From Zymoseptoria tritici IPO323 (lineage: Eukaryota; Ascomycota; Dothideomycetes; Mycosphaerellales; Mycosphaerellaceae): a stretch of 64,000 nt of DNA. The stretch spans positions 1,178,001 to 1,242,000 of the forward strand of contig NC_018208.1 of assembly GCF_000219625.1 (NCBI RefSeq). Reading direction: 5' to 3'. Positions 3,093 through 39,909 of the stretch are shown one piece after another (within the stretch, counting starts at the first letter, position 1; each line of letters opens with the position of its first letter). The translations under genes were made by a program, and so were the position numbers. The notes below the pieces were generated by a model. It saw only the letters and a list, made by a program, of their open reading frames with translations. It ran no database searches and was not told the DNA's origin.

Positions 3093-3770
3093 ATGTCGCA
3101 CATTTCCAGCTTGCTCGAAATGTTCAGCTCGTTTCGGATCACTGGCCACAGTTGGGGTCCGACGTACGCCGAAATCTCCGAAAGCAAGAGGCAAGAACGC
3201 GATGCCAACATTGCAGCGATTCGCCAACTCTCCCACGTTTCACCTCATGAGCTCCTCCCGCCCGACAACACCCCAGCTGGTGTGCCAGAGAATGCCCAGG
3301 ACTTCGATGAAGACCTTTTGAGCGCCATGAGACGTATGTGTGAGAGCACGAAGACCGACATGTATCAAGTCCGCAAACGCATTGCCCAAGCCATCCTCAA
3401 TCGTACTGGTGGCAGCACTGCCCTCTTCATCAGCGATGATTTTCGCGACGCTCGCGAGCTTCTCGAAAAGGACCTTAGCCACGACAACGGATTCATGGAG
3501 TGTCTGCAGGACGAGCCCGAGTGCGAGCACGCCGGAGGTAGACCTGCGCAAGAGCACCGTGCAAATAATACGGGAGAAAGCGTCCCACCGCAGCGTATGG
3601 AGACCAGCGCAATTCATGCCGAACTTGCGGACTTGCACGAGGAGCATAGTACAAGCTCCGGGGTCATCTACTACTGGACAAGGCATGGCTTTGTAGCCCA
3701 GCGAGTGAAAGATCTTGAGGAGGAGGTGTTCGGGAGAGGGCGTCATTGGAATCAATTTCGCCAGGACTGA
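3093..3770 (+). CDS. Unrecognised 225-residue protein, distant family-B member
   Basis: A single-exon reading frame of 225 residues begins at ATG 3093. I recognise no named domain. Around residues 35-105 the protein has the order R..NI..I, then PPDNTPAGVPENAQDF, then an LL.....CE.T helix. This parallels the region shared by the family-B genes at 15339 and 17023 (ITGE..., P..VPEDAKDCS, LL..I.FCL.RT). I therefore infer a divergent paralogue. The C-terminal 50 residues are different. Composition suggests a soluble, partly helical protein with no signal peptide or membrane segment. It is the first gene of the accessory block extending to about 18.7 kb. Confidence 0.6.
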   Translation: MSHISSLLEMFSSFRITGHSWGPTYAEISESKRQERDANIAAIRQLSHVSPHELLPPDNTPAGVPENAQDFDEDLLSAMRRMCESTKTDMYQVRKRIAQAILNRTGGSTALFISDDFRDARELLEKDLSHDNGFMECLQDEPECEHAGGRPAQEHRANNTGESVPPQRMETSAIHAELADLHEEHSTSSGVIYYWTRHGFVAQRVKDLEEEVFGRGRHWNQFRQD

Positions 3771-4574
3771 GAACGAGTCCGATGCTCTCGTATTTTCGGT
3801 TCAGCAGAGGTCCGTAAAGGGGCTGAATTTGTTATGCATGTGCTGGTCATGGTCGACTCTTCCCTGAGCGCGAGTGGCTTTGCAGGATTGGGATGATACT
3901 GAGAGGCTTGAAGCCGTGTACCGTTGGCGCACGCATTGGGTAATTTTGGTTTTGCTTTTGGGAAGGTCCTCTGGACTGGATGGCGCATGGGACTACTAGA
4001 CAGGACTAGATACTACGAGAACAAATCTATTACATCGGGCCTCCTCCAATCTTCCACCCTGGCCACAGGATCTCTGCCAACGCTTTTACCCGGACTGTGG
4101 CTGTCTTGACGCAAGAGTCGCCCGTTGATTACCTCGAGCCGCTTGCTGCATCTGGAATCTGGCGACTACGGAATTCACACACCTTGGGCAATGCGAAATT
4201 AAGGAGACCCGCGGTGAAGCGATCTTCATGGTGCGGTTCGCTGCATTTGCCAGCGACTAGACAAAGCATCGATTTGTTCTCAAGGCATCGAATCGTATCG
4301 ACTGCGTGCTGCATCTCATCTCGGCTATCCTGCATCCTGCGCGATCTGAGACTGCGGCGAGACTCGATTCAGCGTGCCAGATCGATCGATTGGCATCATC
4401 TCAATCAATATAGCGACTGAGTATAAGCATCCCTCAAAGTCCTGACATCGGCCTGCAGCTCATCTGACACTACCCATCTATTGCTGACGCCGTCTTGACC
4501 AACACCGCGACTCAGTACCTGCGTACGAACCACCCACAACAAAGCCACAGCATACCATCACACTTCTAGTGATC
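3771..4574. other. intergenic, TATA-like box but no gene seen
   Basis: About 800 bp between two accessory genes. TATAAG at 4422-4427 lies about 150 bp before the next start. Short frames here show no recognisable protein. Confidence 0.4.
4422..4427 (+). promoter_or_regulatory. TATA-like box upstream of A1
   Basis: TATAAG about 150 bp upstream of the A1 start codon. Comparable boxes precede three other genes of this block at 150-190 bp. Confidence 0.35.
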
Positions 4575-5678
4575 ATGCAACAGGTCCGGTACAATCCCGA
4601 CCACTCTGGACACGTGCCACGCCGTGCGGTGTCTCCCCACTCGCAAGAGCATAATTTCAAGATCTACCGCGAGTACTTGGTCAGGCGGATCAAAGATGTC
4701 ACTCAAGGCTCGGAACCGACGAGTTTCTTTACCGACTCACAACTTCCTCTATTGCAAGGCGATGCTGCCGAGTGGGACAAGACACTGCTGGAACACATCC
4801 TCGATCTGGCCATTGAGGTGGCGGAGATCGCACGCACCGATTTCAATTCGAATATGAGTGAAGCCGATAATATTCAACATTATGTTCGCTTCGCACGGAG
4901 TTGGATGTACGAATATGAGCAAATGAGGCGTTTGTGGAGGAGCGAGGCCGACGTGCAGAACGCTGTGAAGGAATGCCGAGCTGCTGTCAGGACTTGGTGG
5001 CGGAACAGAGCGACAGAGGTAGCGAATGAGGAGCGGAAGCAGCGGAAAGAGTCGATCCAACAAGAACGTAAAGAGGCCATGGAATCACTCGTCGCACTCA
5101 TCCGAACTTCGATATCTCGCTCTCCTGCAGATGTCATGGACGTGTGGGAGGGCATCGAAGAGCAAATCGATCAATGCCAGGGAACTTTGACGGAAGAAGT
5201 CAAGGAATCGATTGCAAAGGAGTTCGCGCGAATGTGGAAGCATGTACAAGCGCCTCGTCGAACAGGATGGATCTTTCACTCCACAAAACCTCGTCCTAAA
5301 GGATGTCAAGCAAAGGTGGCCGTGACGTGGAAAATACCTCCCGGTGGTGAGTACGACTCAGAGAAAGGGCATATCACCTACGAAACCTCGCATGCCTACA
5401 CAGAGTTCTACCGACATGACACATACCCATGGAGCCCGGACTTGAAAGACCCCCCAGAGACCATCACGCCGTTTTTGATCGATCCCATCAAGGTCAGGTT
5501 CTCCACGACAACACTCAACGGCAAGCCCACGAAAGGAGAGGTTGCTCTAAAGCCTCGTGAGATTGAAGCGCAAGACGTAAGACGTGCTCTAGCTTTGAGA
5601 AGCGGAGCACGATCTGAAGCAAATGCAGAAGTGTCCCAGACTTCAAGCACAAGCTCGACATGGTCGGAAGAGCTATGA
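4575..5678 (+). CDS. Unrecognised family-A protein (copy A1), 367 residues
   Basis: A single-exon frame of 367 residues from ATG 4575. The middle is highly charged and helical, probably coiled coil around residues 120-180. It is followed by a conserved block near residues 230-280 (AKVAVTWKIPPGGEYD, then GHITYETSHAYTEFY). The copy at 6316 has the same order: helical region, W..IE/DIE segment, then AKLKVTWEIPPGGTYD and GRITYESRHSFEEVY. The two genes are therefore ancient tandem duplicates. The VTW.IPPGG.YD block looks like a small beta domain, but I know no named family for it. No signal peptide or membrane segment is visible. The tail is Ser/Thr-rich. Confidence 0.68.
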   Translation: MQQVRYNPDHSGHVPRRAVSPHSQEHNFKIYREYLVRRIKDVTQGSEPTSFFTDSQLPLLQGDAAEWDKTLLEHILDLAIEVAEIARTDFNSNMSEADNIQHYVRFARSWMYEYEQMRRLWRSEADVQNAVKECRAAVRTWWRNRATEVANEERKQRKESIQQERKEAMESLVALIRTSISRSPADVMDVWEGIEEQIDQCQGTLTEEVKESIAKEFARMWKHVQAPRRTGWIFHSTKPRPKGCQAKVAVTWKIPPGGEYDSEKGHITYETSHAYTEFYRHDTYPWSPDLKDPPETITPFLIDPIKVRFSTTTLNGKPTKGEVALKPREIEAQDVRRALALRSGARSEANAEVSQTSSTSSTWSEEL

Positions 5679-6315
5679 AGAGCTTTACATATGCGCATCG
5701 TGGGATATCAAATGCCGCTATCGATTTGAGAAAAAGGGCAAGAGTGGAAGGGTGGAAAACTGTTTGAACGGCGAAGATAATAGGTTGCAGTACAAAGAAT
5801 GAAGTCTTCCTACGGCTATGGCGGAGATGTTTTCGAAGACGTGGAGCGCCGCCTCATGTCCAAAGGGAATCCAGATCATCCGCCGTGAAGAGCTATCGCA
5901 TCTATTGAGGGTGAGAATCCAAGACCTTCTCACATCCCGCTTTAGATACCGGTGCTCTGCTTCACTTTCATTGTTCTTTCGGCGAGCACTGCAATCATGT
6001 TCTTGGACGCCATGGTTCAGATTCCATCCTCACCACGTCTTGTTTGCTGTGTCTTACGGTAGCGAACATCGGGCAAGACATCTCAGCCGGAGGACATAGA
6101 TTGTGGGTCTCGACCAGATGAGATCTTGTCTCTGCTTGCTGAGACAGCATACTGATATAAGAGGAGCCATGGACCTTCTCTTATCATCACGATCATAAAA
6201 CGACAACGCAAAACTTGCCCTTGGTCCCATTTGCAGGAGCCTTCAACCACAGTACAACTTTCTGCTATTCCATCTCATCCAGCAATTCTCAGCTTCGCTC
6301 CAACTCTTTGCCGCG
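5679..6315. other. intergenic and 5' leader of A2 with a short upstream ORF
   Basis: About 640 bp without a gene. TATAAG lies at 6156-6161. An upstream ATG in good context (GCCATGG) at 6169 opens a 9-codon frame ending at 6198, before the A2 start at 6316. If transcription starts just after the TATA-like box, this upstream frame could reduce translation of A2. Confidence 0.35.
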
Positions 6316-7281
6316 ATGTGGCCAGCTCGTTTGACGGAAGGCTATTCAGCGAATCTGTCAACGCCAGGCTATTCAACGAACCAAGTTGCCCGCAGACCAG
6401 GTCAGATCATGACTGCAGATCAAAGGGCCAACAATGCCCACAATGGTTCCGTCCTTCGAGAAATTGAGCTACTAGCTGGAAACTTGGGTCTCCGAGCAGT
6501 TCTTACACCGAGACAACTCAGTGCCCTGAACAAGGATGCGGAAACTTGGACGACCCCAGTGCTAGACACGATCCTTCAGCTCGTCAAGACCGTCGTCCAC
6601 GAATCTCTACCCGGCGTACAAAACGCCGCAGCTGAGCATTTCATACAAGAAGCCCGAGCCTGGATGATGGACGAAGAAGTTGCCAAGGAACTTCATCCTC
6701 TTGGAGCAGGCGATGTGCAGGAGGCGGTCAAACGTTGCCAAGTCGAATATGCGGACAAGAAAGTTGCGGAAGGACAGCAGATGATGAGAGAATACCATCT
6801 ACTCGAAGCACACAAGAAAGCCATTCAGGACACGTTGGAGATCTTCAAAAAATCCATCACCGACTGCTCGAGCAACTTTGAAGAGGTCTGGCACGACATC
6901 GAATTCGAAGTCAATATGCGCCACGGCATTCTCACACACGATCTCAGGCAGTGGCTCCAAGAGCAGTTCTACGAGCTGTGGGAGCAAGCCAGACCACTCC
7001 CTCCGCGGAAGTACACCTTTCGTTCTCTCAACCCTATGATGCGGGCAAAAGGACCGAGAGCTAAGCTGAAAGTCACTTGGGAGATCCCGCCTGGTGGTAC
7101 GTACGACAAGAGCACTGGACGCATCACCTATGAAAGTAGACATAGCTTCGAGGAAGTCTATGGCATCGATGGTGCAACGAAGAGGACTGGTAACCATGAC
7201 ACCCAGCCTATCGAGATCGAGCATCTGAGTACCAAAGTCGTCAAAGTTAGGCTCAACGGCAACCCGGGAGTCATGGCCTAG
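6316..7281 (+). CDS. Unrecognised family-A protein (copy A2), 321 residues
   Basis: A single-exon frame of 321 residues, paralogous to the gene at 4575. Shared features, in order, are a helical N-terminal half, the segment FEEVWHDIEFEVNMRHGIL (A1 has VMDVWEGIEEQIDQCQGTL), and the conserved block with AKLKVTWEIPPGGTYD and GRITYESRHSFEEVY near residues 250-285. The C-terminus ends soon after, so A2 lacks the roughly 50-residue tail of A1. No named domain is recognised. Both copies lie in the same orientation 640 bp apart, which indicates local duplication followed by strong divergence. Confidence 0.68.
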   Translation: MWPARLTEGYSANLSTPGYSTNQVARRPGQIMTADQRANNAHNGSVLREIELLAGNLGLRAVLTPRQLSALNKDAETWTTPVLDTILQLVKTVVHESLPGVQNAAAEHFIQEARAWMMDEEVAKELHPLGAGDVQEAVKRCQVEYADKKVAEGQQMMREYHLLEAHKKAIQDTLEIFKKSITDCSSNFEEVWHDIEFEVNMRHGILTHDLRQWLQEQFYELWEQARPLPPRKYTFRSLNPMMRAKGPRAKLKVTWEIPPGGTYDKSTGRITYESRHSFEEVYGIDGATKRTGNHDTQPIEIEHLSTKVVKVRLNGNPGVMA

Positions 7282-7724
7282 AAGAGCCATCGCAAGATAA
7301 GAGCGAATGCACTTTTGACGGCGCAGATTGGGCTAAGGTGTTAGAGCAGGGTGCGCTTCTTGTTTTCCATGAAAGCATTTGTCGATGCCTCACAGGCGGG
7401 TAAGAGGATGAATGACCACGGCAAAAGTGAGGGTCAAGAAGCTCGGGATCAGACTGAAAGAGTCTAGGTCGTGCATCAGAGATAATAAGTACCTAATATC
7501 TACCTCGCAACATTATCCAATGCATCGGCGAACCCTCGTCTGTCGACAGTTCTGTTATATGTTCTGTAATCAAGTGAATTCAAGCATCTCTGCCAAGTGA
7601 CAGACAGAAGTGGATGCTGAAGTGAGGCGGAGCGGATTTGCAAGGACATGCCAACCTTTCTACCGAACACTCGCGAGACAACTTCTGCATAACAACATCT
7701 CAGCGCACTTCTGCAATCTACACC
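7282..7724. other. intergenic, nothing recognised
   Basis: About 440 bp with no gene, RNA or repeat that I can support. Confidence 0.3.
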
Positions 7725-8189
7725 ATGGCCTTCGGCGAAGATCAAGAGATGAAGGACTTCAACTTCGAGTCGCAAAGCGCCACTCCACGCTCGTTCATAA
7801 CAACGCCAACTCACAAGACTTCCGATTCGCCCACGGACCCAACTGGCCTTGACGACCTTCTCGCTCTGGAGGCGATCGTCGACAGAGAGACGCTTGAGAA
7901 AGACATCAAAAAGATAGAAGCTCAGCTGAAGGATGACTTACACTTGAAGGAACGTGGGCATGGTGCCCTAAGGGCAGATGCAACGCAAATTGGCTCTTCA
8001 GGGGCAAGGGGCAACATGCGCAGGGTACTGGTACCGAAGTCAGCCAGCGGTTCAAGATTGAGAGAGATGCAGACGTCAAAGATGGAGGTATCCGAGTACC
8101 CTTTAACACATCAGGCGAAAACAAACCAAGGTACAGCCTCAGATCGGACTGCTGTGGAGCAGGAGGCGGATGCGATGGACTTGTCTTGA
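7725..8189 (+). CDS. Unrecognised small acidic protein, 154 residues
   Basis: The frame continues upstream, but ATG 7725 sits in an excellent context (CACCATGG) and is the likely start. It gives 154 residues, including a helical stretch DDLLALEAIVDRETLEKDIKK. The rest is polar and rich in Ser, Thr and charged residues, probably disordered. No domain, signal peptide or membrane segment is visible. The end DAMDLS resembles the end of the next gene (DRMDLD), which may be chance. It belongs to the accessory block; function unknown. Confidence 0.45.
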   Translation: MAFGEDQEMKDFNFESQSATPRSFITTPTHKTSDSPTDPTGLDDLLALEAIVDRETLEKDIKKIEAQLKDDLHLKERGHGALRADATQIGSSGARGNMRRVLVPKSASGSRLREMQTSKMEVSEYPLTHQAKTNQGTASDRTAVEQEADAMDLS

Positions 8190-8556
8190 GACATAGTCTG
8201 CCTCGTTTGACTAGCTAGCGCTGACAATCAATGCGCATACTTCGATTCAATATTCAAAACAGCCAGTGTATCTTGTGTTGTGCGATCTCGTCGTGAATTT
8301 GTTCTCTAGCCGGGTCCTTCCTGTTTAGGACGACGCTAGCAAGGCTTGGCATGAGAAGTGAATGGTGCTCAGGACGCATGGCTGCCTCAGCTGACTAACG
8401 CCCGCCTCGACCCGCCGACCGTGAGCGCGGAGCAAATCATTGGACGCAAGCTTGGAGCTGCTTGTGCTGAGCGACGACATGATCGAATTCCCCGCCTGCC
8501 CCTGACCTTGACCGGAGCCACAAAAGCAGAGCGCAAACACCGCGCCTCTGTCCATT
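8190..8556. other. intergenic, nothing recognised
   Basis: About 370 bp between two accessory genes; no supported feature. Confidence 0.3.
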
Positions 8557-9330
8557 ATGCAAGACCTGCAACCGGGTATGAGTATGCAGAGCTACGAGCA
8601 AGCGCTCGATGACTTCCCCTATCAGCAAAACCAGGATTCGACCGTGGACGATCAAGCATACCGGCAACACAGCATGTCCGATCATGAATTGTTGTCCGCC
8701 ATGTCCAAACACAGCTCCTTTGCGCACCTCTCCAACATTTCTTACAAGAACTCCACGAGATTGTTACACAACGCGGCAACAACCCACCAGGATTTCGAGC
8801 ACTACGAACCCGCAAGCGACATTGAGGATTACACCGTCGAACTCGACTTCAACAGCGATGCGCCTTGCATCGAAGAGCAAATTCTCTACGCCATTGAGAC
8901 CAGCGGTGAAGCCACGGAGCCCGAGATCCACTTGAGATCCGTCGATGAAGCGGTCAAAGAGGTGCGTCAGTCTCTTGAGCATCTTGACATGCAGTCTTAC
9001 GAGAGGCTCACGCAGCTCCAGGCTGTCATGTTTGCCAAGGCGGCGAAGAGGCTTCGAGAAGGAGCGCCGCCATATCCGGATAATACCTTTTGCGCACAGC
9101 GCGGTGACGACGATGACGACGACGACGAGGAGAACGAGTTTTCGGACGCCGAGGCGGAGAACCATTACGTGAAGTACTTGGAGGGACGGCTTGCATTGCT
9201 CGATAGGAAGGCAAAAACCCGCCAGGCGCATGGAGGACAAAAGGACGATGCTCTGCCAGGACAGGAATGTGCTAGATCGGTCCCGCTACCTGGTGAAGTC
9301 GACGGTCAGGACCGCATGGACCTGGACTGA
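8557..9330 (+). CDS. Unrecognised 257-residue protein with an Asp-rich acidic tract
   Basis: A single-exon frame of 257 residues starts at ATG 8557. The N-terminal third is Gln/Ser/His-rich. A helical middle around residues 130-170 (VDEAVKEVRQSLEHLD..., LTQLQAVMFAKAAKRL) precedes a run of seven aspartates near residue 185 and an acidic segment. After this comes another helix (HYVKYLEGRLALLDRKAK). No named family is recognised. An acidic run between helical segments is common in nuclear proteins, but location is not shown. No close paralogue was found in the window. Confidence 0.55.
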   Translation: MQDLQPGMSMQSYEQALDDFPYQQNQDSTVDDQAYRQHSMSDHELLSAMSKHSSFAHLSNISYKNSTRLLHNAATTHQDFEHYEPASDIEDYTVELDFNSDAPCIEEQILYAIETSGEATEPEIHLRSVDEAVKEVRQSLEHLDMQSYERLTQLQAVMFAKAAKRLREGAPPYPDNTFCAQRGDDDDDDDEENEFSDAEAENHYVKYLEGRLALLDRKAKTRQAHGGQKDDALPGQECARSVPLPGEVDGQDRMDLD

Positions 9331-15338: not shown

Positions 15339-16369
15339 ATGCAAACGCTTTCGGAAGCAGCAGGAGAAGTGCCTACTTGTATCGTGATCGATGACAACGA
15401 CAAGGACGGTACGTTAAAGGGCGTATGGCCGCCCATCATGAATCGTGTACTGAGCATGCAATAGTCGAACAAGGAACGACCCCTTCGTTGCGAACCTCTT
15501 CAGACCAGCACAAATTGCCAAAAGTCCATCGTCCGCTATCAACTATCATCCGCAAGGCCGAGTTCGTCATCGACGGGGACATCTGGACGGACCACCTCTC
15601 CCATCAGAAGAAGAACAGTTTAAAGCACATGCCGTACGCTGCATGTGGGCCGTCCTCTCAGCGGAAACGGGACGAGGTGATCAACGACATCAACTTCATT
15701 ACCGGCGAAACGTCCAAGCGGGCCTGGTTCACGTGTATTCCGCTGCGATTCCGTCCCGCCAAAGTTCCTGAGGATGCTAAGGATTGCAGTACGGCTTTAC
15801 TGCAGGACATCCTCTTCTGTCTTGAAAGGACCAACGACAGACGCAAGTTAGCCGAGCAGACGGCCAAGCTTGCGGCCGCTCGTAGGCCATCGAGTAAGCA
15901 CGAGTCGCCTGTTACAACACAAAGTGTACCGCCGCCTGCCAAGATGCACGAAGCGCACTCCCAGCGCCTGTCAACACTGAAACAAAGCGATACCCGAGGA
16001 AGCTCCAGTGTCAATGCTGAGCGGGTCGAGCAGCCAGAACACTCGGAACAGCCAGATAGTCGCAAGCGGAAACATGAGGACGATGACATAAGTGCATCAA
16101 AGAAGCTCGACACAGGCTTACGAGTCCCAGCCAGGATCCAGACATCTGAAGATGCGGCGATACAACGCAAAAAGAATGAAGCAGGCTTAGCCATTATGCG
16201 ACTGGAGGCTAAAGTGAAGAGCTTGGCGAGAACGGGTGGGAGTTCGGAGGAGCACAAGGAGAGCAAGGCCGAACTGACAGTTTTGAAGCTGGACTTTGCG
16301 TTGAAGTATGGCATGAATGAGTATGCGATGTGGAGAGACCAGATGGTCCTTCAGATGTCTTCGGATTGA
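15339..16369 (+). CDS. Unrecognised family-B protein (copy B1) with a SUMO-interacting-motif-like start
   Basis: Exon 1 (15339-15408) and exon 2 (15465-16369) join in phase 1 across a 56-bp intron (GTACGT...ATAG), giving 324 residues. Exon 1 encodes CIVIDDNDKD, a hydrophobic core followed by acids, as in SUMO-interacting motifs. The core region (FITGETSKRAWFTCIPLRFRPAKVPEDAKDCSTALLQ, then FCLERT) is shared with copy B2. So is the C-terminal helix beginning NEAGLAIMRLEAKVKSLA and ending in YAMWRDQMVLQMS. The middle is polar and probably disordered, with basic stretches (SRKRKHEDDD) that could serve as nuclear localisation signals. No named domain is recognised. Confidence 0.68.
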
Positions 16370-17022
16370 GCTTGGGAATGAGATCTTGTCGGTCTTTGTG
16401 AAAGGCCGCCATATCGATATTGTGGCTGCGTAGGTAAGTATGGAGCTGGTTCAAGACGTTCCACGGTACATCGGACTTACGTGCATCTACCTTAAAGTGC
16501 TCCAGATAGGAAGAGCTGACCTCAGCATCGACTGTCCCCTACCTGGATCCATGCTGAGATCCGAGCTCCATAGCGTATCAAGCTGCCCGACTATCACCTC
16601 ATCGGGAGATCCGCGGACCTCACTGCTGTCGATGATCTGTCTCCACGCCGGGTTGATCCGGCCTATGCCTCGAAGCTGCACTGCGAGTTACTCCGTACAT
16701 GATTTTGCCGCCTCGAACAAAGCCAATTCCATGCTTGCGGCTCGGTCAGCCATTTCAAGAGCAATCAGCTCGATGGTTTGTTTCTTTTGTGTCCATCTTG
16801 CATGGTAGATCTTGCTTTACGGGTACACGCAGTGTCTCTTTCTTTACCGCAGGCGGCAAGCTTGAAAGGGGCAAACATCGAAGTCACCGACAAGTGCCGT
16901 TGTTCGAAATCAAAACCTACAACAAATCTCACAGACCGTTCGTATGCGAACAGAACATCCTCACGGCATCCGAAGTCCAGAGATATTTACTGTAAGCCCC
17001 AACATCGTCAATCGGAGCAAGT
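16370..17022. other. intergenic, nothing recognised
   Basis: About 650 bp between the two adjacent family-B genes. No TATA-like box at the usual distance and no RNA gene was seen. Confidence 0.35.
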
Positions 17023-18046
17023 ATGGCGTTTGCACCGGTTGGAAACGATAGCGACTACGATGAACTCGCGGGCGATTCGAAGGGTTTCGGTGAGATGAGC
17101 TGCAAGATTTATGTGCTCGTAGCAGTCTACTAACCATCGTGCAGCTCGACCGACCTCATCATCGATCCTTTCAGCCAGACGCGACACTCACAAAGATGAC
17201 GGACCCGAGCCGGCTGTGGGCTACAAATTCGATCCGGTCATGTACGAACAAGTGTGGAAAGACCATATGAAACAACGCCCCACTCCAAGACAAAGGTACA
17301 ATCACTCAGCGTTTGAGGAATTGAGCGACAACTCCAAGCACCAAAGACGTCGTCAGAAGGAGGCAATCGACAAGCTTACTGGGCGAGACTGTACGCTTTC
17401 GTACTCCAATCACATCCCAAGAGCATACCGACCAGTGGATCTTCCGAGGTATGCAGAGGACTGCAGTGGAGACTTGCTCAAAGTCATTGCCTTTTGTCTT
17501 CGGAATACCAAGAAGATCCGCAAGAAGGGAGAAAAGGTCTCCAAGAGCGGAAATTCTGCAGCCGAGCGTGAGCATATGCCGGCCAAGAAGACTTCGAGTA
17601 AGCAAGAGATATTGTCTCTGACCCGATTGGTACCAGCACCGATGAAGGAGCAAGACGCTCCATCAAAATCGCAAAATTCTGTCAAGAGCAGCAGGCGCCT
17701 TGACAGTCCTGAGAATGCTGTGACCTCTCCACCAACGATTGACACTGAAAATCGCAAGAGGAAGCTCATGGTTTTCAAGTGGGGAACGTCGACTAGCAGT
17801 GATGCGAGACCACAAGATCCAGTTGTGAGGAACAGAGATGCTGTGGATGAGCGCAAAAAAGAGGAAGCAGGATTGGCTATCATGTCATTGGAGGCCGAAT
17901 TGAAGAGGCTGGCAAAGACCAGCAGAGCCTCTGAGGAGTATCAGGAGAAGCAAGAGGCCTTGGTTGCTTCGAAGCTACGTTTTGGACATAGACATGGCAT
18001 GAAGTATGCACTGTGGAAAGAGTGGGTCATGCTTGAGATGTCTTGA
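17023..18046 (+). CDS. Unrecognised family-B protein (copy B2), 322 residues
   Basis: Exon 1 (17023-17089, MAFAPVGNDSDYDELAGDSKGF) and exon 2 (17145-18046) join in phase 1 across a 55-bp intron, the same arrangement as B1. Shared blocks are TGRDCTLSYSNHIPRAYRPVDLP, YAEDCSGDLLKVIAFCLRNT, EEAGLAIMSLEAELKRLAKTSRASEEYQEKQEA, and the C-terminus KYALWKEWVMLEMS. The intron position, gene order and sequence all support tandem duplication with B1. The central part is Ser/Lys-rich with basic runs (RKRKLMVFK). The C-terminal helix could be a dimerisation coiled coil. Function is unknown and no catalytic motif is seen. Confidence 0.68.
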
Positions 18047-35100: not shown

Positions 35101-35983
35101 CTACCCCTTGCGAACCCCAACATACCTCAAAAACTCGCTTCGAAGCTCTGGCTTCTCATCGAAACACCCCATGAAGCAGCTCGTGACAGTAGTAGCGTCA
35201 GTCTGCTCAACCCCCCGCATCTTCATACACAAGTGCGAAGCCTCCATCACGACCGCGACTCCCTTCGCCTTCACGACATCTTGAACGGCATAAGCCACTT
35301 GCGACGTCAGACGCTCTTGGATTTGCAGTCTGTGAGAGTACATTTGCACGATGCGCGGGACTTTGGAGAGGCCGATGACGGTGCTGTTGGGTATGTAGGC
35401 GATGTGGATCTGCGGGACTTTGTCAGCTGTTGGCGACGCAGAAAGAGAGAGCGGCGTGCTTGTGGTAGTATACCTTGCCTAAAAAGGGAAGAAGATGATG
35501 TTCGCAAAGACTGTGGACCTCGATGTCCTTGACAACGACCATACCAGTATATGCCCCATGGAAAAGAGCTTCGCCAACGATGGCGTGAGTGTCGAGCTTG
35601 TAGCCGGAGGTGAGATCGATGAGGGCTTGGGCGTAACGACGTGGTGTTTCGAGGAGGTCTTTTCGATTGGGATCTTCGCCGATGCATTCGAGCATAGTCT
35701 TGATGGCATTGCAAAGCTTTCGGAAGTTCTCGTTGGCAGTCTCGGGCGCTTCAGTCTCGGTAGTGTCTTGGTCGACGCTGGTTTCGGTCTCATGGAACCG
35801 ATCCGCACCGGGCATGGAGTCGAACGATGCCATGTCTGAAGTTGCTACAGAGCGCTTGCGTTGATTGAAGAGCTGAAGCAAAAGCGAGCGGTCCGCAAGG
35901 TACTTATCAGTACTCCTTGTGTCGAAGATCAGAGTCCGTTTGGCAATTGCTTGTGTGACTCCATTCATACTTGATAGATGCAT
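35101..35983 (-). CDS. FOL2: GTP cyclohydrolase I
   Basis: Exon 1 (35983-35474) and exon 2 (35409-35101) join across a 64-bp intron (GTATAC...CGCAG), restoring [14 protein letters not shown]. It has the zinc ligands ([12 protein letters not shown] and HLCMKMRG) and the conserved QERLTSQVA. It converts GTP to 7,8-dihydroneopterin triphosphate, the first step of folate and tetrahydrobiopterin synthesis, as a cytosolic homodecamer. From the first ATG the protein has 272 residues. An ATG at 35833 has a better context (GACATGG) and would give 222. The 50 extra N-terminal residues are not conserved in the family as I know it, so the start is uncertain. Confidence 0.93.
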
Positions 35984-36495
35984 GGATTTGTCAATAAGCC
36001 TTGTTGTATGCTTGAGGTGAGGTCCATGTTTGCTGAAGCAACGAAAAACGGGAGCTCTCCGAATGGTGCGCGCTCGATAGTTTCGTCGACAAACTGTTTA
36101 CGCGAGCGGCAGAGCTTTGCTTCAGTCGGGGTGGCGGGCAATTCTCCAGCAGATCGAGACAAGGACAGTTTACAACCCTGGAGTTATCGGTGAAATGCCA
36201 GATCTGTCTTGTGAAAGGGAGCCATGTGGGAGCAATCGTCCGCGTGCAGATTTGCGGTGCTAGGACGTGAACTTTGGCGCGTGAAAGCTTCTGCTCAAAG
36301 ACTCTTGTAAGATGCTTGGTAAAGCGGAGAAACAGGCAGAAGGCTCGCCTTTCATGCTTCTGCTTGTTGAGCTCAGCGCATCTTAAGCTATTCGCCAACA
36401 AATAAGTCAGCAACGTCCTCATCATTCCTCAGCGCATTTCCAATACAGGAGTACATCCGACAGCTCAGGACCAAGCCAGAACCAGAACCAGCAGG
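35984..36495. other. intergenic between divergent genes, nothing recognised
   Basis: About 510 bp between the GTP cyclohydrolase and the four-domain fusion gene. No TATA box or repeat stands out. Confidence 0.35.
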
Positions 36496-39400
36496 ATGGC
36501 AAGCCTCAACAAGCTGAAGAAAGCTCTTCGAGAGCAGGCAACACAAGCTGCGCCAGCATCACAAAGGATACCACTATCCGACTCTCAGTACGAGGACGGC
36601 TTCAAGACCTTGATCGATGGTCTCGGAAACTGCGCATACCAGGACTTCATCATACCGCAACTGTCGCAGATTCTGGCACCACTCCTCGACTCTGGACGCA
36701 CGATCTCGGTGCTGGAAGTTGGTCCGGGCCCAGAGAGCGTGCTCAGTCATTTTCCCGACCTATTGAGGCACAAGATCAAGCGGTACACTGCGTTCGAGCC
36801 CAACGTATTGTTCGCAGAGAGATTGCAGCAAAGCTTGAGCTTGGCGTCAGACACAACTTCGCCGCTGCCATGCCTGGAAGGTGCACCAAAGATTCATCAC
36901 GTTGCCTTTGCTCTGGATACTTCCGCCGGTGTCCTTGAAGACGGTAATGAGGAGAAGTTCGATGTTGTGTTGTTCTGCCACAGCATGTACGGCATGAAGC
37001 CAAAGCGATCATTCATCGAGAAGGCGTTGAGTTTGCTCAAGGAAAAGCCCGCAAATGGCATGGCGGTCGTGATTCATCGAGAGAGCCTGGACTTCGGAGG
37101 TTTGACCACTCATTGTTCGACTTCCGGTCCAACAATAATCCGCGTGAATGACGGAGACGAAACGTTGAATCGCTTTGCGCCATTCATCGCTGGATACGTC
37201 ATGGAACAAGATGATGTGAAGGAGGCCGTCCAGCGGCGATGGCGACAAGTCTGCCGCGAACTGGCTGAGCGCGAAGACATCCGTGAAAGGAGTCTTCTCT
37301 TCCGCTCGCACGACACGATCACAGCCTTCACCTCAGAGGACAACGCCGGGTCGGACCCAATGACACAACTGCCCTTGGATCGAAGCAGTGTTGTCGTCAA
37401 GAACCGAGAGGCTCGTATTCATCGCCCTGCCGCGGTTCTCAAGCCGAGAAGCATCGAGGAAGTCCAGAAGTGCGTCCACTGGGCTCTCAAGTATGGAAAA
37501 AGTCTGACTGTAGTCGGTGGAGGGCACAGCGACCATTGTCTTGAGCCAGATGTCGTCGGAATTGACATGAGTGCCTTCCATCTGATTGATGTCGCAGACA
37601 CAGAAGTCAACCATACCGATCCAATCGTTGTCGTAGGAGCCGGCTGTAAGTCAGGAGACATCATCGCCGAAACAATGGCGAAAGGCTTGACCGTAGTGCT
37701 CGGATCCCGTCCGAGTGTCGGTGCCGGCTTATGGCTTCAAGGCGGCATCGGGCATCTGGTTCGGCAGTACGGACTGGCGTGTGATGCGATCGTCGGTGCT
37801 GTGGTTGTCAGCGTCGCTACCGGAGAGGTCCTTTGCATTGGATATGTACCGGACCAGCACCAGCCTCCCAACGCGTTGCGACCGAAGAATGAGGAAGATC
37901 TGTTGTGGGGTTTGAGAGGCGCAGGCACAAATTTCGGAATCGTGATCAGCGTCACTCTCAAGGCTCACCCTGCTCCACAGTACTCAGTGCAGAGCTGGAT
38001 AAAGCCCATGAGCTCCAGTGACGAAGCTCGAGTCATGTTGCGACGAATTGATGAGCAAGTGGTGAAGAAGCTTCCACGACACCAGTCTGCAGACGCCTAT
38101 CTGTTCTCGGAGGCAGGCAAGCTCCATCTCGGTGTCAGCCTCTACGAGAGCTTCATCAGCGAGCCTCCTTCGTCAAACTCGCTACTGGAGACAGTCCTAG
38201 GACCAGCTCTTGGCACTCAAGTCGTGGATTGCATCGGGCTGTTCGACACAGAGATGTACATGTCGGGTATGCATGGTGGACACGCAGGTGGCAAGACGTC
38301 TTCCTTCAAGCGATGTGTGTTCCTCAAGGACATCGGCGCCGCTGATATCGCAGAGAAGCTCACGGCCGCCATCGAGAATCGTCCTCCGCCTGCGCCACGC
38401 TGCTATCTTCATCTCCTCCACGGCAGCGGAGCGGTCGCAGATGTGGTCCCATCGGAGACTGCTTTCGGCTGTCGAGACTGGGAGTATGCTTGTGTTGTGA
38501 CTGCAGTCTGGGCTCGTGATCGAGACGGGACTGATTCCGCCCAGATCGCTACTCAGTGGGTGTACGACGTTATCGCAGATCTGCTGCCATTGAGTTCCGG
38601 CGTTTACGGCGCTGATCTTGGTCCAGACCCTCGTGATGCCGCTCTGGCAGTCAAGGCATTTGGACCGAATGGACGCCGTCTGGCACGACTGAAGGAGCGC
38701 TGCGACCCACACAATGTGTTGGCATACACATGTCCGCTTCCGTGTCTGAAGAAGCATCAAAAGCTTGTCGTTCTCGTCACTGGCGACAGCTGTGCCGGCA
38801 AAGACTTTTGCGCAAAAGTCTGGGCCTCCTTTGTGACAACTCAGAATTTCAACGTCCACATTGCGAGCATCAGTGACTCTACCAAAAGAGATTACGCAGA
38901 CTCAAAAGGCGCCGACTTGAAGCGATTGCTGGAAGCAGGAGAATACAAAGAGGACCATCGGCTCGAACTGACGGCTTACTATAAAGCTCAAGTCCAGCAG
39001 CGGCCTCAATTGCCAGTGGAACATTTCTTGGACGTAGTCCAGCAAGCCGGAGATGTGGACGTGTTGTTCATCACTGGTATGAGAGACGAGGCACCCGTGG
39101 CGAGCTTCGCTCATTTGGTCTCGGAAAGTCGATTGATCGAGGTAAATGTCCAAGCTTGCGGAGAGTCACGAAGAGATCGTGGAGGAGTCATTGCAGGAGA
39201 CGACGCCATCCCAGAACAAGGAGGCAAGAGCAAGCCAACCCTTGTCTTCAGGAACGAGGTGGCCGGCCATGAAGCGGCAGTGACATTCGCCAGAGACGCT
39301 GTCCTCCCGCTGCTTCATGAAGACCTGCAACGACTTGCCGGGCTAGTACGTTCAGTGCCAGACTTCCCACGCCCAGGAATCAATTTCCGAGACATCATCG

Positions 39401-39909
39401 GTATTTTCCAGCGGCCAGGCGGTCTCAACCTGTGTGCGAAATTGATGCGGTCCCATTTTGCAGGAGACTGGACGACCGTCGATGCCATCGTCTGCTGCGA
39501 GACAGGCGGCTTCCTCTTTACGCCGCCTCTGGCTGCGCTGGTCAACTTGCCAATGGTCATCATGCGGGAAGCCGGCAAGCTTCCTCCGCCGACTGTGAGT
39601 GTTGTCAAGTCTGCCTCGTACATCTCGTCATCGTCATCGTCAGGAGAGACATCAATGCAGAAGACGATCGAGATGGGCCGTGATGTATTGGCGAAAGGCG
39701 CATCCGTTGTCGTTGTGGATGACGTCCTTGCGACTGGAGAGACACTTTGCGCTGTGTTGGAACTGTTGAAAGTGGCTGGTGTTGATGCCGTCGATATTGC
39801 GGTCATTGTCGTAGCTGAGTTCCCGCTTCATCGAGGTCGGGAGTTCTTGCGCCGGCGAGGTTTCGGTGGAGTCATGATCCAGAGCGTTCTGGTACTGGAC
39901 GGTAAATAG
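36496..39909 (+). CDS. Four-domain fusion: methyltransferase-like, FAD oxidase (PCMH/BBE), phosphomevalonate-kinase-like P-loop, adenine-phosphoribosyltransferase-like
   Basis: One uninterrupted frame of 1137 residues. Residues about 30-285 resemble a class I SAM methyltransferase, with motif I VLEVGPGPE at 72-80. Residues about 300-745 are a PCMH-type FAD oxidase: GGGHSDHC at 341-348 holds the likely flavin-linking His344, GGIGHLVRQYGLACD follows at 416-430, and the BBE end RLKERCDPHNVLAY is at 731-744. Residues about 755-920 resemble animal-type phosphomevalonate kinase: P-loop GDSCAGKD at 763-770, then STKRDYADSKGADLKRLLE and YKEDHRLEL. Residues about 940-1137 resemble APRT: VPDFPRPGINFRDI near 954, GKLP near 1027, and the PRPP loop VVVVDDVLATGET at 1071-1083. 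All key motifs look intact. Substrate and pathway are unknown. It could be a multistep enzyme for a nucleobase-linked metabolite, which is inference. Confidence 0.85.
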   Translation: MASLNKLKKALREQATQAAPASQRIPLSDSQYEDGFKTLIDGLGNCAYQDFIIPQLSQILAPLLDSGRTISVLEVGPGPESVLSHFPDLLRHKIKRYTAFEPNVLFAERLQQSLSLASDTTSPLPCLEGAPKIHHVAFALDTSAGVLEDGNEEKFDVVLFCHSMYGMKPKRSFIEKALSLLKEKPANGMAVVIHRESLDFGGLTTHCSTSGPTIIRVNDGDETLNRFAPFIAGYVMEQDDVKEAVQRRWRQVCRELAEREDIRERSLLFRSHDTITAFTSEDNAGSDPMTQLPLDRSSVVVKNREARIHRPAAVLKPRSIEEVQKCVHWALKYGKSLTVVGGGHSDHCLEPDVVGIDMSAFHLIDVADTEVNHTDPIVVVGAGCKSGDIIAETMAKGLTVVLGSRPSVGAGLWLQGGIGHLVRQYGLACDAIVGAVVVSVATGEVLCIGYVPDQHQPPNALRPKNEEDLLWGLRGAGTNFGIVISVTLKAHPAPQYSVQSWIKPMSSSDEARVMLRRIDEQVVKKLPRHQSADAYLFSEAGKLHLGVSLYESFISEPPSSNSLLETVLGPALGTQVVDCIGLFDTEMYMSGMHGGHAGGKTSSFKRCVFLKDIGAADIAEKLTAAIENRPPPAPRCYLHLLHGSGAVADVVPSETAFGCRDWEYACVVTAVWARDRDGTDSAQIATQWVYDVIADLLPLSSGVYGADLGPDPRDAALAVKAFGPNGRRLARLKERCDPHNVLAYTCPLPCLKKHQKLVVLVTGDSCAGKDFCAKVWASFVTTQNFNVHIASISDSTKRDYADSKGADLKRLLEAGEYKEDHRLELTAYYKAQVQQRPQLPVEHFLDVVQQAGDVDVLFITGMRDEAPVASFAHLVSESRLIEVNVQACGESRRDRGGVIAGDDAIPEQGGKSKPTLVFRNEVAGHEAAVTFARDAVLPLLHEDLQRLAGLVRSVPDFPRPGINFRDIIGIFQRPGGLNLCAKLMRSHFAGDWTTVDAIVCCETGGFLFTPPLAALVNLPMVIMREAGKLPPPTVSVVKSASYISSSSSSGETSMQKTIEMGRDVLAKGASVVVVDDVLATGETLCAVLELLKVAGVDAVDIAVIVVAEFPLHRGREFLRRRGFGGVMIQSVLVLDGK

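Follow-up and report, generated by a model that had tools for sequence, protein, structure and literature searches.

The 64,000-nucleotide window analysed here (NCBI RefSeq assembly GCF_000219625.1, contig NC_018208.1, positions 1,178,001 to 1,242,000 of the forward strand) comes from the wheat-infecting fungus Zymoseptoria tritici IPO323. It contains a gene whose product joins four conserved enzyme modules in one reading frame: a methyltransferase, a flavin adenine dinucleotide (FAD)-dependent oxidase, a P-loop kinase and a phosphoribosyltransferase. In window coordinates, its features are:

36496..39909, plus strand: the whole four-module gene, a single open reading frame of 1,137 codons (1,137 amino acids)
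36565..37341, plus strand: module 1, class I S-adenosylmethionine (SAM)-dependent methyltransferase with a histamine N-methyltransferase-like fold, residues 24-282
37348..38730, plus strand: module 2, FAD-dependent oxidase with the fold of berberine-bridge enzymes (BBE) and 6-hydroxynicotine oxidase, residues 285-745
38764..39180, plus strand: module 3, P-loop kinase of the PF04275 family, residues 757-895, Walker A motif G763-x4-G768-K769-D770
39322..39906, plus strand: module 4, type I phosphoribosyltransferase resembling adenine phosphoribosyltransferase (APRT), residues 943-1137, with the phosphoribosyl pyrophosphate (PRPP) motif VVVVDDVLATGET

The start codon matches that of relatives, whose consensus begins MATLDSLK. 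An earlier sequence-only reading had proposed this single-frame fusion and knew of no described enzyme with its architecture: all four modules are confirmed in the frame, and no description of the architecture was found in the open-access literature listings of searches aimed at it.

Conservation and identity of the modules

The fusion is no quirk of one genome. A protein database search returned 1,073 matches at E ≤ 0.001 from 7,997 candidates scored. The 120 matches listed are 1,085–1,179 residues long (at least 1,100 in 119 of them) and all carry the same three Pfam domains; identity to the query is 85–100% in Zymoseptoria and 54–58% elsewhere. Going by organism names, they belong to Dothideomycetes, Sordariomycetes, Leotiomycetes, Eurotiomycetes, Orbiliomycetes, lichens and earth tongues, and include Aspergillus flavus and close Aspergillus species. 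The sequence-only reading proposed looking for the same domain order across fungi; the fusion does recur in many other moulds and lichens, with at least 120 proteins of similar length.

Residue counts below refer to an alignment of 120 rows, made up of the query plus 119 homologues, with the identical P0002 left out. In it, each of the four modules has near-invariant motifs. The mean top-residue frequency is 0.84 for the methyltransferase, 0.89 for the FAD part, 0.88 for the kinase and 0.87 for the transferase, with 0.79 for the linker before the transferase. When 27 members were scanned at E ≤ 0.01, the three main Pfam families were found in every one, the methyltransferase in 16 and the C-terminal BBE domain (PF08031) in 15; the kinase and transferase domains are thus both upheld by Pfam in the query and throughout this sample. 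No homologue of the whole fusion was confirmed in viral and prokaryotic contigs, each scan using two peptide patterns, which makes this weak evidence. Eleven phage records match parts of the protein, ten in the transferase stretch and one in the oxidase stretch, and none covers 80%.

Module 1 shows the class I methyltransferase fold, with a glycine-rich motif I and an acidic residue after strand 2; by Pfam alone it falls under the cut-off. Residues L73, E74, G76, G78, E101, C161, H162, S163 and Y165 are invariant. The closest fold is human histamine N-methyltransferase (PDB 2aou, 1jqe), which is 14% identical and whose substrate site is not comparable by sequence.

Module 2 has both a FAD_binding_4 domain and, over its whole length, the fold of BBE/6-hydroxynicotine-oxidase flavoproteins; in the query PF08031 scores E 0.012, under the cut-off. 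The structure matches listed are 6-hydroxynicotine oxidase, EncM, BBE-type and carbohydrate oxidases, of which 6-hydroxy-D-nicotine oxidase, EncM and the berberine-bridge-type oxidases (PDB 2bvf, 6fy8) are about 20% identical and, unlike module 2, are not part of such a fusion. His344, kept in 119 rows, is the predicted covalent FAD site. The invariant Arg405 aligns with a Cys of a BBE-like enzyme and a His of 6-hydroxynicotine oxidase, so the second FAD-linking Cys of BBE is absent. The whole-model fold search tested the oxidase only; the kinase and transferase folds rest on sequence.

Module 3 scores 72.6 bits with the PF04275 profile (cut-off 33.8), and 34.6 bits with the NCBIfam equivalog TIGR01223, whose cut-off is 188.15. 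It is the only place where PF04275 was matched in the genome search. The surprise voiced in the sequence-only reading, an animal-type phosphomevalonate-kinase-like domain in a fungus expected to use Erg8, is borne out on both counts: the domain is present, and Erg8 lies elsewhere, on contig C9, matched exon by exon and under the whole-protein cut-off. With animal phosphomevalonate kinase (PDB 3ch4, 7xnd) module 3 shares PF04275, the P-loop GKD (120 rows), Lys797 (119), Tyr-Lys-Glu 817-819 (120), Arg822 (120) and Arg863 (120). The P-loop KRK of two solved phosphomevalonate kinases is replaced by E or D (115), S (114) and C or G (118), and the second Arg of their TRR motif by Asp (118); we take KRK and TRR to be catalytic. 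Phosphomevalonate as the substrate was rejected on these lost marker residues and the separate Erg8.

The genome likely once held two copies of the kinase-transferase part. A decayed fragment on contig C4 (2077369-2077670; L007:1495-1796) is about 49% identical, in two pieces, to residues 905-1007, and lies upstream of a frame that by eye resembles a peroxiredoxin.

Module 4 belongs to the type I phosphoribosyltransferases with a PRPP motif, in which D1075, D1076, G1081 and T1083 are invariant and T1080 is kept in 117 rows. APRT is its best NCBIfam and PDB match; the best of the curated APRT equivalog models reaches 111.5 bits against a cut-off of 125, with the others listed lower. It shares with human APRT (PDB 1ore/6fch) the fold family, the FPxxGxxF start, the GKLP loop and the PRPP motif. 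It differs in being fused to three further modules and in its presumed active site: the SRGF Arg is Gly (120 rows), the RK of the RKxGKLPG loop is R then E (109), and the loop Glu-Tyr aligns with Ser-Ser. The genome's separate APRT, on contig C1, keeps all three features. In docking, Glu104 and Tyr105 of APRT contact adenine-like ligands, according to an excerpt of PMC7414151.

Because marker residues of both kinase and transferase are replaced and the equivalog cut-offs are missed, their fold-family labels, judged by these residues, are right and their substrate names are not. The automatic name adenine phosphoribosyltransferase, carried by many such proteins, is probably wrong on substrate.

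The divergent GTP cyclohydrolase I gene

Upstream of the fusion, in the opposite orientation, lies a gene matching PF01227 (E 3.5e-71):

35101..35983, minus strand: second GTP cyclohydrolase I gene, divergent neighbour, two exons, 272 or 222 amino acids
35983 or 35833 to 35474, minus strand: its exon 1
35473-35410, minus strand: its intron
35409-35101, minus strand: its exon 2
35984..36495, no strand: gap separating the two divergent start codons, 512 bp long (662 bp with the cyclohydrolase start at 35833)

The 222-residue form is 100% identical to the annotated Z. tritici protein P0242. Judging by its coordinates, the gap is likely a shared promoter region. The genome search found GTP cyclohydrolase I genes at two places, this neighbour and contig C8, whose products are 53% identical. 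In a tree of 65 rows (64 hand-picked from the 120 copies listed, plus the C8 copy), which carries long-branch warnings, the C8 copy groups with Zasmidium, Elasticomyces and Teratosphaeria, and the neighbour sits on a long branch.

Linkage was judged from the contigs and locus tags of the species named in both listings, six including that of the window; the cyclohydrolases were 120 of 8,000 matches, so that second copies may be hidden. The two genes are linked in three of the six, the window's species counted. In Cosmosporella sp. VM-42 they carry consecutive tags on the same 3.85-Mb contig (Fc.00g055530, the cyclohydrolase, and Fc.00g055540, the four-module protein), and in Podospora conica a family member with a 633-residue model shares a 76,664-bp contig with a cyclohydrolase. 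In Ophiocordyceps sinensis the entries shown are unlinked, 1,088 tag numbers apart on the same contig; for Venturia inaequalis linkage cannot be judged.

The residues LSKxPR, HLCM and RGVE, which had seemed shared, occur together in 42 of the 120 cyclohydrolase copies listed. LSKxPR, RGVE and G-C-F are common to most Fusarium-type copies, the extra Zymoseptoria copy and its Delphinella and Sphaerulina counterparts, and set the last three apart from the ordinary Dothideomycete cyclohydrolases listed. Old paralogy, or gene transfer from one class to another, could explain this pattern.

Other genes tested near the fusion encode a bromodomain/BAH protein, OTU1, a PalB calpain, a mitochondrial carrier and a CUE-domain protein. 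Further away in the window, the stretches 3093-9330 and 15425-18046 contain several open frames (225-369 amino acids) with repeated phrases; frames 4569-5678 and 6316-7281 share one phrase, 15425-16369 and 17216-18046 another. They are perhaps local gene families.

A candidate pterin pathway and its rivals

We infer a pterin substrate because a second GTP cyclohydrolase I gene adjoins the fusion; such an additional enzyme hints at a purpose beyond folate. From the pterin that its neighbour makes, the fusion protein may then build one that is methylated, oxidised and ribose-bearing, a proposal whose chances we put close to, and slightly under, even. In a first step, the neighbour would convert GTP to 7,8-dihydroneopterin triphosphate, which housekeeping enzymes would trim, giving a dihydropterin of the 6-hydroxymethyl or neopterin type. 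Methylation by module 1 would fall on a ring nitrogen, for which N8 fits; module 2, whose family includes enzymes that oxidise C-N bonds, would take C7 to the 7-oxo (isoxanthopterin) level; module 4 would add 5-phosphoribose from PRPP; and module 3 would add a phosphate to the pterin alcohol or to the sugar phosphate already in place. Least certain are what the kinase does and in which order the steps run. Pterin tailoring fits because a methyltransferase nearest in fold to ring-nitrogen methyltransferases, an oxidase of a family with C-N-oxidising members and a PRPP transferase are the set expected for an N-methylated, 7-oxo, ribosylated pterin. A folate HPPK is present in the genome, in which PTPS/QueD and QueC gave no match in six frames, exon by exon, with no eukaryotic control (QueE was not searched). 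Tetrahydrobiopterin and 7-deazapurines are therefore unlikely products, and the tetrahydrobiopterin route was rejected on the missing PTPS/QueD match. We infer all of this chemistry; among the explanations considered, a pterin riboside pathway comes first, with a roughly balanced chance of being right.

Several observations weigh against it. It is hard to see what the kinase contributes to the final molecule, and O-methyltransferases too are among the matches of module 1. In the tree the linked cyclohydrolases do not come out as one clade: the Zymoseptoria and Cosmosporella copies form a loose set that does not take in the Podospora copy. In Elasticomyces elasticus the fusion and cyclohydrolase entries lie on contigs of differing size, a comparison of limited weight. 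Some fungi seem to keep the kinase and transferase alone, such as V. inaequalis (P0214, in a supported group with P0202 and P0205). In the short models P0166, P0181 and P0192, the kinase follows directly on roughly the first 10-25 residues of the full protein; these may be real deletions, with methyltransferase and oxidase cut or spliced out, or gene-model artefacts.

Among 120 short entries listed, the P-loop of 32 lies no further than about 28 residues from the start, and many entries carry oxidase ends and look like truncated gene models. A single ancestral lineage of short kinase-transferase proteins did not emerge: a quick tree built on 42 rows, 21 full and 21 short, hand-picked from 120 of each listed, intermixes the two with 9 changes. 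Even so, the clustering exceeds chance, shuffled labels giving a mean of 14.3 changes and as few as 9 in 3 of 500 trials.

The pterin route has to be weighed against other uses of the same modules. They may tailor some other small molecule in an unrelated natural-product route, with the cyclohydrolase supplying a cofactor or present by chance. That substrates are unreadable from sequence and that linkage holds in only three of the six species compared both leave room for this; chance does not easily account for a second cyclohydrolase beside the gene and the same adjacency in a fungus from a different class, and we regard such a route as unlikely. Salvage or tailoring of a purine or modified nucleobase is a further candidate: the base would be methylated, oxidised and phosphoribosylated and the nucleotide phosphorylated, the cyclohydrolase being incidental. 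A nucleotide-type kinase beside a phosphoribosyltransferase makes simple chemical sense, short forms keep these two together, and the APRT matches of module 4 point the same way; against this stand the replaced adenine-site and loop residues and a cyclohydrolase pairing seen in three genera, which make it quite improbable.

Of the sequence-only reading, the true fusion and its animal-type kinase module stand; its adenine or prenylated-adenine (cytokinin) substrate is not supported. That reading does not mention the neighbouring second cyclohydrolase gene, which points to pterins instead. The cytokinin-binding domain (PF09265) is not among the 10 Pfam families listed for the protein at E ≤ 1. 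Cytokinin metabolism, in which the oxidase would degrade and the transferase recycle N6-prenylated adenines, draws on cytokinin oxidase activity in Leptosphaeria maculans mycelium extract (an excerpt of PMC5521058) and is rejected, with a very small residual chance, on that absence and the altered adenine site, with the oxidase resembling 6-hydroxynicotine oxidase, EncM, BBE and carbohydrate oxidases and the methyltransferase and cyclohydrolase left without a role.

Significance and comparison with known systems

A four-enzyme protein conserved over much of a fungal subphylum marks a gap in our picture of fungal metabolism, and the gene pairing narrows this gap to one testable guess, a pterin riboside. 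A wider claim, which we hold to be rather doubtful, is that the fusion, kept across Pezizomycotina, is the missing synthase of pterin nucleosides of the type of asperopterin A, a metabolite of Aspergillus oryzae. Working with a dedicated cyclohydrolase, it would proceed by N8 methylation, C7 oxidation, PRPP phosphoribosylation and a repurposed phosphomevalonate-kinase step, and pterin 'nucleotides' would be widespread, overlooked fungal metabolites. If the pterin proposal is true, it would supply the gene for asperopterin-like blue-fluorescent compounds, an APRT-like enzyme that acts on a pterin and an animal-type phosphomevalonate kinase in a new use. Such compounds have possibly been mistaken for aflatoxins, according to an excerpt of PMC6208954.

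In excerpts of PMC6112128, the Streptomyces tubercidin cluster resembles the fusion locus in bringing GTP cyclohydrolase I (TubC) and a PRPP-dependent transferase (TubE) into one pathway, which speaks for a tubercidin-like 7-deazapurine nucleoside pathway here; the cluster differs in using separate bacterial proteins on a 7-deazapurine route, with a QueD-type CPH4 synthase (TubA) and the radical SAM enzyme TubB as well, and with no PTPS/QueD or QueC match in this genome (QueE not searched) such a pathway is highly improbable.

Asperopterin A is a pterin glycoside, an isoxanthopterin glycoside going by titles cited in PMC6208954, and a title cited by PMC9781283 names a pteridine glycoside from A. 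oryzae. The comparison is limited in that no product is tied to the fusion protein and that nothing in the molecule corresponds to the kinase step. To our knowledge, no gene for asperopterin A is known. The molecule is an 8-methyl, 6-hydroxymethyl compound with a ribofuranose, and would match three of the modules together with the cyclohydrolase.
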